Shown here in pieces: positions 62,908-64,000 of a stretch of DNA of 64,000 nt (positions within the stretch are counted from its first letter, which is position 1; every line of letters starts with the position of its first letter). The position numbers and the translations under genes were made by a program. Source of the stretch: Alistipes sp. (lineage in GTDB: Bacteria > Bacteroidota > Bacteroidia > Bacteroidales > Rikenellaceae); NCBI GenBank assembly GCA_017536555.1, contig JAFXHE010000008.1:94731-158730 (forward strand). Direction: 5' to 3'. Below the pieces are notes generated by a model. That model was not told the origin of the DNA. It did not search any database and worked only from the letters and a program-made list of their open reading frames with translations.

Positions 62908-63801
62908 ATGAGATGTAATAATTGTGGCTGGGAGAATCCCGCCGAGGTAAAACGATGCGAAAAGTGTAATCAGCTATTGCCCGAAATCAGCGAAGTGCCC
63001 GCAGCTGCTCCAGCAGAGAGCACACCTGCACCCGCAGATAGTGCGCCCGCAGCAGCCAACAACAACGAAGTGCTCAACTGCCCAAAGTGTGGCTATATCC
63101 TTGTTGGTGGCACGTCATATTGCCCCAACTGTGGCTGGGAAGAGCAGTCTAATAACAACCCTATCGAGCCAGCACCACAGAGTGCGCCATCACTGGCAAA
63201 CAGTATGATGCGTACGGTGATGATGGGAAGCAAGCAGAGCGAAGCTCCTGCACCATCACCCGCAGACACCAAGAAGACGGTGGTGGTTAGTGCTATGCCC
63301 GAAGTTGAGCCTATGCCCACAGTGTCAGACACAAAGAAGACCGTCGTGATGGCTACTACACCCGAAGTTGAGCCTATGCCTACAGTGTCAGACACAAAGA
63401 GGACTGTTATATTAGGCGCGATACCCGAGGTTGAGCCCACTAAATCGAGCCGCGAGACAAAGTCTACTGTGCGCGAGCTTCCCGACGACCTTATTGTCGA
63501 GCAGTCTCAAGCCACAGCCGAGAGCGCGCAGCATACACTGACACCCGTAGACGGCTTTTCGGGCAACGCTTTAGCGGTAGCTCTCAACGGCAACAGCATA
63601 ACACTCAATCGCGAGAATGTAGAGCCTGCAAATATGTCGATAGCAGAGGGTGCACAGGCAGAGGTGGTATGCGAGAATGGCGAGTGGTATATTCGCAACT
63701 TGAGCGAGCTTAAGAACACCTACATCTGCGTTGAGCGTAAGACGAAGTTGGAGAAGGGTGACATCATAGTTATCGGCAACCGCCGCTACATCTTCTCATA
63801 A
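62908..63801 (+). CDS. Double zinc-ribbon protein with Thr-Val ladder and degenerate FHA domain
   Basis: A 297-residue cytoplasmic protein. Two zinc ribbons come first: C3, C6, C17, C20 and C58, C61, C72, C75 (CNNCGW and CPNCGW style), separated by a Pro/Ala linker. Residues 100-190 are a low-complexity linker with five Thr-Val sites at T103, T124, T145, T166 and T187, four of them in a T-K-x-T-V context, which look like kinase targets. Residues about 215-297 resemble an FHA domain (ITLNRENVEP, GEWYIRNLSELKNTYI, GDIIVIGNRRYIF) that keeps an Arg but lacks the Ser-Arg-x-x-His motif. FHA domains bind phosphothreonine. A second, probably FHA, gene follows after 63 bases, suggesting Ser/Thr-kinase signalling. 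Confidence 0.8.
   Translation: MRCNNCGWENPAEVKRCEKCNQLLPEISEVPAAAPAESTPAPADSAPAAANNNEVLNCPKCGYILVGGTSYCPNCGWEEQSNNNPIEPAPQSAPSLANSMMRTVMMGSKQSEAPAPSPADTKKTVVVSAMPEVEPMPTVSDTKKTVVMATTPEVEPMPTVSDTKRTVILGAIPEVEPTKSSRETKSTVRELPDDLIVEQSQATAESAQHTLTPVDGFSGNALAVALNGNSITLNRENVEPANMSIAEGAQAEVVCENGEWYIRNLSELKNTYICVERKTKLEKGDIIVIGNRRYIFS
63214..63468 (+). repeat. 63-base coding period carrying five Thr-Val sites
   Basis: Threonine codons at 63214, 63277, 63340, 63403 and 63466 are each exactly 63 bases (21 residues) apart, each followed by a Val codon. Copies two to four also share PEVEP after the site; copies two and three share PMPTVSDTK. The first and last are degenerate, as in an old tandem duplication. 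Confidence 0.92.
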
Positions 63802-63864: not shown

Positions 63865-64000
63865 ATGGAGAACAACTACAAAAGAACCATCGCTGGCTCA
63901 GTAGGTGCTGGTATGGGTGCTATTTTCAATGCTTCAGGTCGTCGCTACTACATCTTGGAGCACAAGACAGAGTCGGAGTTCCACCACCGCGGCGAGTCGC
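63865..64000 (+). CDS. N-terminus of a probable FHA-domain protein
   Basis: Only 45 codons are inside the window and the frame is open at the right edge. The start is MENNYKRTIAGSVGAGMG followed by AIFNASGRRYYILEHKTES. From memory this matches the conserved beginning of Bacteroidales proteins with one FHA domain and later membrane segments, but the FHA core itself lies outside. The YKRTIAG stretch near residue 8 resembles the TKRTV sites of the preceding protein and could be a phosphorylation site. It follows the zinc-ribbon gene by 63 bases. Confidence 0.65.
   Translation, partial: MENNYKRTIAGSVGAGMGAIFNASGRRYYILEHKTESEFHHRGES

Follow-up and report, generated by a model that had tools for sequence, protein, structure and literature searches.

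The window, the 64,000-nucleotide stretch of an Alistipes sp. genome analysed here, forms the 3' end of its contig (C7). Close to that end, an open frame (62908..63801, + strand) encodes a 297-residue protein scoring above the Pfam cut-offs for Zn_Ribbon_1 (30.5 bits, cut-off 25) and DZR (29.8 bits, cut-off 27.3; residues 3-76). From the N- to the C-terminus, this protein, hereafter the adaptor, is made of a double zinc ribbon, a linker of ~130 residues with a Thr array and a C-terminal FHA-like domain; a zinc-binding N-terminus is thus combined with an FHA-fold C-terminus (Pfam and VIA-align structure comparison). The first ribbon half (C3-x2-C6 ... C17-x2-C20; 62914..62967, + strand), recognised by Pfam and Cys conservation, has four invariant cysteines (C3, C6, C17 and C20, each in 18/18 rows of alignment A2), and in the second (C58-x2-C61 ... 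C72-x2-C75; 63079..63132, + strand, Pfam DZR) C61, C72 and C75 are near-invariant. In the predicted model, residues 91-190 of the linker have a pLDDT of 36-57 per 10-residue block and no helix or strand element, in agreement with the disorder proposed in a preliminary description of this DNA. The most likely picture is that of a soluble adaptor with a disordered linker (low pLDDT) bearing several short Thr motifs, next to a degenerate FHA pocket in cis.

The linker carries five Thr-Val sites, T103, T124, T145, T166 and T187 (63214..63471, + strand). Their Thr codons start at 63214, 63277, 63340, 63403 and 63466, Val directly follows each Thr, and successive gaps are 21, 21, 21 and 21 residues; four of the five lie in a T-K-x-T-V setting (TKKTV, TKKTV, TKRTV and TKSTV), exactly as first described. 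Two further T-V pairs, T138 and T159, bring the total to seven, because the repeat unit also holds a P-T-V-S-D and this twice. Shuffling this linker 1000 times leaves 2.7 T-[VIM] pairs on average, so that the seven observed exceed chance (p = 0.009). At the DNA level, Tandem Repeats Finder reports a 63-bp direct tandem repeat (63263..63437, + strand; 2.2-2.3 copies, 83-84% matches), and this tandem duplication explains why the middle units lie 21 residues apart; T103 and T187 are in register, yet lie beyond the bounds of the reported repeat. In the middle three units, the Thr codons (ACG/ACC/ACT) and the Val codons (GTG/GTC/GTT) differ only silently. We considered the 21-residue spacing as a functional element and rejected it, since relatives have irregular or other spacings and the spacing originates in a 63-bp duplication of DNA.

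The C-terminal domain (63532..63798, + strand) has the beta-sandwich FHA fold with a degenerate phosphothreonine site, as proposed from its missing S-R-x-x-H motif. PMC4037201 describes FHA domains as pThr-specific and assigns roles in phosphothreonine recognition to an Arg, a Ser, a His and an Asn of the pocket. In the window protein, Arg is kept, Ser is replaced by Glu and His by Gln, and the Asn column holds Lys, the next residue being Asn, so that the intact pocket of PF00498 is absent. Against the PF00498 gathering score of 20.7, the window scores 16.3 bits as a whole protein and 19.9 as a 95-residue piece, and the relatives L041 and L042 score 22.0 and 23.0; all 34 rows of the domain alignment A3 match PF00498 at E <= 0.01. 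The FHA Asn is missing at its column in 34/34 of these rows, which we read as about 29/34 because L046, L050, L051, L052 and L054 carry a possible FHA Asn one column earlier. A3 excludes L012 and L057 (domain mostly lost), close kin of kept rows (L009, L010, L055, L064, L067 and L071) and L072, L082, L083 and L084, whose domain is, by eye, nearer to a canonical FHA (S-G-x-H, N-G-T); the pocket-loss counts therefore hold for the 34 A3 rows only. We also observed that the FHA-like domain is mostly deleted, with only its edges remaining, at L012:10001-10381 and L040:6872-7702.

Downstream of the adaptor, the window holds the start of an FHA protein (63866..64000, + strand; N-terminal K-R-T-I-x-G-S; Pfam FHA, 54 bits), cut because the window ends contig C7. 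An identical start is found on contig C12 of the same genome (L034:6-956), with 54% identity to the FHA protein of L012. On C12, the complete gene of the FHA protein comes first, and after it a gene for 137 residues, a PP2C and kinase-2; C14 (L035) ends with kinase-1 and then the same FHA-gene start; and the ends of C7 and C14 each share exactly 141 bases with the start of C12 (L034:1-956). Contig C20 (L039) ends in a second FHA-protein end, 96% identical. Most simply, this would mean that the FHA gene exists in two copies and that the operon is split, the zinc-ribbon gene preceding one copy and kinase-1 the other, with ambiguous joins of C7 and C14. In this genome, the zinc-ribbon gene is thus followed by an FHA gene and not by a kinase gene, kinase-1 being on C14.

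Relatives of the adaptor were sought at several taxonomic levels. One scan of genome contigs, with patterns that included linker peptides of the window, gave nine relatives. Profile searches matched 15/393 genomes of the order (E <= 1e-6, own genome counted; one, G091, by eye not family), 8/395 of the class (E <= 1e-12, own or centre genome counted) and 3/151 of the genus (E <= 1e-8; one, G477, by eye not family), so that within the genus sample the adaptor was found only in G021 besides the window species. With the centre genome counted, 14/104 genomes matched in the family of G254 and 7/119 in the family of G404. The adaptor gene is scattered, not core. No adaptor relative was found on viral contigs (A2 as query) or on plasmids (the single orthologue L042 as query). 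The resulting family set comprises 46 proteins, reduced to 41 linkers by dropping the near-copies L009, L010, L064, L067 and L071; it is slightly biased to similar linkers, because profiles A1 and A2 and the scan patterns contain linker sequence. Kept out were L021, L022 and L053 (single ribbon, type VI-type), L024 and L025 (two FHA-like domains, N-terminal ribbon pair absent), L026 and L058 (by eye not family), as well as pieces and re-fetched copies.

The family belongs to a conserved operon of Bacteroidota. In 38 loci, genes were assigned to types by profiles built on these loci, which gave 35 zinc-ribbon genes in 34 of them, not counting the window, which is cut at the contig end after its FHA gene start. 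The next gene on the same strand encodes a Ser/Thr kinase in 33/35 cases, 32 of them with an FHA domain; of the remaining two, one is a paralogue in L008, which is followed by the zinc-ribbon gene itself, and the other is in L047, where one gene lies between. An FHA-only gene is in view in 32 of the 34 zinc-ribbon loci, a PP2C in 31 and at least two kinase genes in 31. The pockets of these partners are intact in the FHA-only proteins and largely so in the kinases: Arg, Ser, His and Asn are each present in 37/37 FHA-only proteins, and in the 38 domain rows of the kinase FHA, Ser is kept in 37, His in 37, Asn in 36 and Arg in 31. Possible readers other than the adaptor's own domain are therefore present. 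In the FHA-only proteins the FHA domain is N-terminal (L009 adds a trypsin-like domain at the C-terminus), and a hydrophobic stretch, judged by eye, suggests that the protein is probably membrane-bound. These proteins often start with K-R-[T/S]-hydrophobic-x-G-[S/T]-[V/I]-x-x-G, a motif resembling the adaptor sites (63866-63910 in the window; L040, L041 and others), with Ser in place of Thr in many relatives and no motif in several. A recurrent operon protein of roughly 280-300 residues, probably secreted, occurs in L005, L006, L007, L008 and L009 (fam4); the one member scanned (L009:13510-14397) had no Pfam, NCBIfam or PADLOC match. At L048:9346-10631 (G052), the kinase-FHA gene is broken into two frames, perhaps because the operon is decaying, or else through an assembly error.

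The enrichment of Thr sites was measured across the 41 non-redundant linkers (5108 residues, 1000 shuffles). T[VIM] occurs 122 times, vs 42.2 +- 5.7 after shuffling (shuffle maximum 62), and [KRG]T[VIM] 85 times vs 8.0, while S[VIM] occurs 32 times vs 44.7. The excess persists in the 30 linkers left when the window and ten array-rich or many-site proteins are set aside (T[VIM], 59 vs 18.9; [KRG]T[VIM], 41 vs 3.9; [KRG]S[VIM], 8 vs 4.6). Among the five operon protein types tested, only the adaptor is strongly enriched: the T[VIM] ratio is 0.77 in PP2C tails (n=31), 0.87 in kinase-1 linkers (n=34) and 0.95 in tails of FHA proteins (n=34), with a mild excess in kinase-2 tails (n=36; ratio 1.31, 94 vs 71.6 +- 7.3). 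Taken singly, p < 0.05 is reached in 17/41 linkers only, individual linkers being short for such tests, and the number of T-[VIM] per linker ranges from 0 to 10. The 121 unique core sites are spread over 39/41 linkers. Of these, 51 have a hydrophobic residue at T+3, 28 an acidic one and 17 a Pro; one FHA +3 rule for all sites was rejected in favour of these three classes. A site of the T-V-N-P-W type occurs in 16/41 linkers, the window not being one of them.

Arrays recur among the relatives with other units and other spacings. The G021 protein (L040/L057), whose FHA domain is shortened to a remnant, has six T-V sites at irregular intervals (92, 118, 178, 191, 204 and 228), the last of which, ATVRDVPEELIVD, matches the window's STVRELPDDLIVE. 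In the family of G254, L041 carries a 16-residue tandem unit (KKTERFVGQDQNVSNA) in the same protein region as the window array, and other members carry units of 16 (L068, KKTVVA..), 14 (L069, KKTMVIGNTPANDP), 13 (L065, AKRTEAFV.SQQ) and 11 residues (L070/L071, PQK.TRYEG.N); a single 13-residue unit distinguishes L064 from its near-copy L065 (97% identity). Across arrays, site number and spacing vary and a core is kept, namely a basic residue, then Thr, often with Val, Met, Ile or Glu. The preliminary description had read the exact ladder as the signature of a multivalent phospho-acceptor array, in which the number of sites might vary at constant spacing. The number does vary in orthologues, but the 21-residue spacing is not kept (irregular in G021; 11, 13, 14, 16 and 16 elsewhere); what survives is a recurrent, Thr-specific array of variable size with an FHA kinase, an FHA protein and a PP2C encoded at most of the loci, and a role of the exact ladder itself is not supported. 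Sites can also be missing altogether: the orthologue L012 has zero T-[VIM], though kinase, FHA protein and PP2C are all present; orthologues of this kind, lacking Thr-Val sites, were named in the preliminary description as evidence against its reading. The L047 member, beside type VI genes, has no array.

Units unlike in both sequence and length favour separate origins of these arrays. On a tree of the partner kinases (36 rows, ten labelled as array), the array label needs three changes; well supported branches also force three, and the count is 3-3 across bootstrap trees, with losses possible among the three. Three of the ten array rows, the kinases of L090, L091 and L095 (adaptors L061, L073 and L062), stand for short or irregular arrays and share one clade with clear ones, and the row of the window is the C14 kinase, not a gene adjoining the window adaptor. 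When neighbouring units of six arrays are compared in register, 10 changes at the Thr codon are silent and 2 alter the amino acid, vs 58 silent and 124 amino-acid changes at positions outside -2 to +1 (Fisher p = 0.0006, for adjacent units that are non-independent and six arrays that were hand-picked). The in-register acceptor is Thr in 32/33 units, Asn in the next-to-last counted unit of L069 and never Val or Ile.

In GarA and OdhI, an intact FHA domain closes onto a single N-terminal pThr of the same chain, unlike the window adaptor, whose cis FHA is degenerate. Known bacterial FHA ligands are mostly single Thr sites. We compared the family with other kinase and FHA systems. In its putative working, it resembles human MDC1, in which four TQxF sites are phosphorylated by one kinase and can each bind RNF8 and PELI1/2 through the FHA domains of these proteins (PMC11884936): in both cases, several short Thr motifs sit on one adaptor, here as several candidate acceptors in one disordered chain (low pLDDT), and many family sites are hydrophobic at +3. 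MDC1 is, however, a eukaryotic DNA-damage protein with TQxF motifs, whereas the family core is K/R/G-T-V/I/M and the neighbouring kinase bears an FHA domain. The domain order recalls ArnA of Sulfolobus, described in PMC6509490 as a zinc-finger FHA protein of a kinase network with a RanBP2-like ribbon; the ribbon type differs, however, and ArnA is reported there to retain its phosphate-recognition residues and to partner with ArnB, a vWA protein, whereas the window protein combines a degenerate pocket with Thr sites of its own. A Ser/Thr kinase and an FHA protein also act in type VI control (PpkA, a PP2C-type phosphatase, Fha and TssL), where PMC3953482 reports that, in Agrobacterium, the PpkA-dependent pThr14 of TssL is bound by Fha; TssL has that single Thr14, in contrast to the arrays of the window family. 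At L047:992-10029 (G309), a zinc-ribbon/FHA-like gene and an FHA kinase lie beside a TssK-type gene (above the Pfam cut-off) and a weak TssF match, and a link of such genes to type VI control in Bacteroidota is possible. A similar zinc-ribbon gene adjoins a kinase-like gene at L021 (G294).

The anti-phage module KKP offers another parallel: PMC11341870 lists a PP2C and a pair of kinases, of which one has an FHA domain, and gives a cold-shock-domain kinase as the defining element. The window-family operon likewise has an FHA kinase and a PP2C, often with a second kinase, but adds the zinc-ribbon adaptor and a second FHA protein, and neither of the two own-genome kinases scanned with Pfam has a cold-shock domain. 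With PADLOC, the kinases best matched mad6 (217.5 and 151.6 bits), then PD-T4-6, the FHA proteins gave weak protease or coiled-coil matches and the adaptor gave none; the NCBIfam MAD6 model scored 146 and 114 bits on the kinases (cut-off 460), and none of nine proteins scanned reached the cut-off of any NCBIfam family. On the PADLOC and NCBIfam results, a known defence system was rejected. In the literature search, which left most subscription papers outside, no title or abstract opening describes the operon or the arrays.

From these sequence comparisons, we propose that the operon kinase probably phosphorylates several Thr residues of the adaptor, to which partner proteins would then dock with their intact FHA domains. 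The sites would have the core [K/R/G]-T-[V/I/M] or K-K-T-x-x-hydrophobic; one of the operon kinases would phosphorylate the linker Thr residues, both this kinase and the second FHA protein would dock on them through their FHA domains, and the PP2C would erase the marks. Several sites per chain could then give multivalent, graded recruitment, possibly the selected trait, and an in-frame tandem duplication of one site-bearing unit would change the number of sites, the spacing being a by-product of unit length. The membrane location of the second FHA protein and the existence of an input signal would complete the scheme.

Could the sites instead be mere drift, a 63-bp duplication in an unconstrained low-complexity linker that copied Thr-Val by chance and is read by nothing? 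The middle units are indeed a plain DNA tandem repeat and the gene is scattered (3/151 genus genomes with a profile match, one by eye not family), but array-free linkers are enriched too (59 vs 18.9), arrays stand at three places of the kinase tree with related cores and different spacers, Thr codon changes are mostly silent, and control regions of four other operon proteins never exceed a T[VIM] ratio of 1.31; we consider drift improbable. That the sites are kinase substrates without being FHA ligands, serving as a phosphate sink or timer or altering the linker by multisite charge, would suit the kinase gene adjoining the zinc-ribbon gene in 33/35 cases, the basic residues before Thr, which fit a kinase recognition motif, and the non-uniform T+3, which means that no single FHA +3 class is served. 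This would nevertheless leave aside that the acceptors are Thr rather than Ser, as FHA readout requires, and that most of the same loci encode intact FHA domains, and we regard it as unlikely.

The preference for Thr over Ser before Val or Ile also fits beta-strand propensity, which tells against the phospho-adaptor reading. The sites could then be a non-phosphorylated motif whose T-V-hydrophobic stretch adds a beta-strand to a partner, Thr being retained because it favours strands, in line with Val, Ile or Met at +1 and hydrophobic residues at +3. The predicted model has no strand in the linker (a weak argument, the model being unbound), the acceptor is Thr in all in-register units but one and never Val or Ile, and the neighbours are kinase, FHA and phosphatase genes; such a motif appears very doubtful to us. 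We retain the phosphorylated, FHA-docked adaptor as the more probable reading, although the site-free L012, the array-less L047 member, the uneven T+3, the mild excess in kinase-2 tails, the few linkers significant on their own and the FHA gene following the zinc-ribbon gene in the window's own genome also speak against it.

Altogether, the known part of this system is bacterial kinase, phosphatase and FHA signalling, and the new part is a putative multi-site Thr adaptor: one operon would encode candidates for a writer, an eraser and two readers, together with a ligand that has several sites. More tentatively, and with rather less confidence than an even chance would deserve, multivalent pThr scaffolds comparable to the MDC1 array may have evolved more than once in bacteria; in-frame tandem duplication would raise or lower their number of sites, and FHA domains would cluster them, probably at the membrane, possibly into phosphorylation-driven clusters or condensates. 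The recurrence of Thr strings beside FHA-kinase genes suggests a little-studied kind of bacterial phospho-scaffold, and its natural range of 0 to 10 sites per linker, with several spacings, offers a compact bacterial setting for testing directly what the number of sites does.
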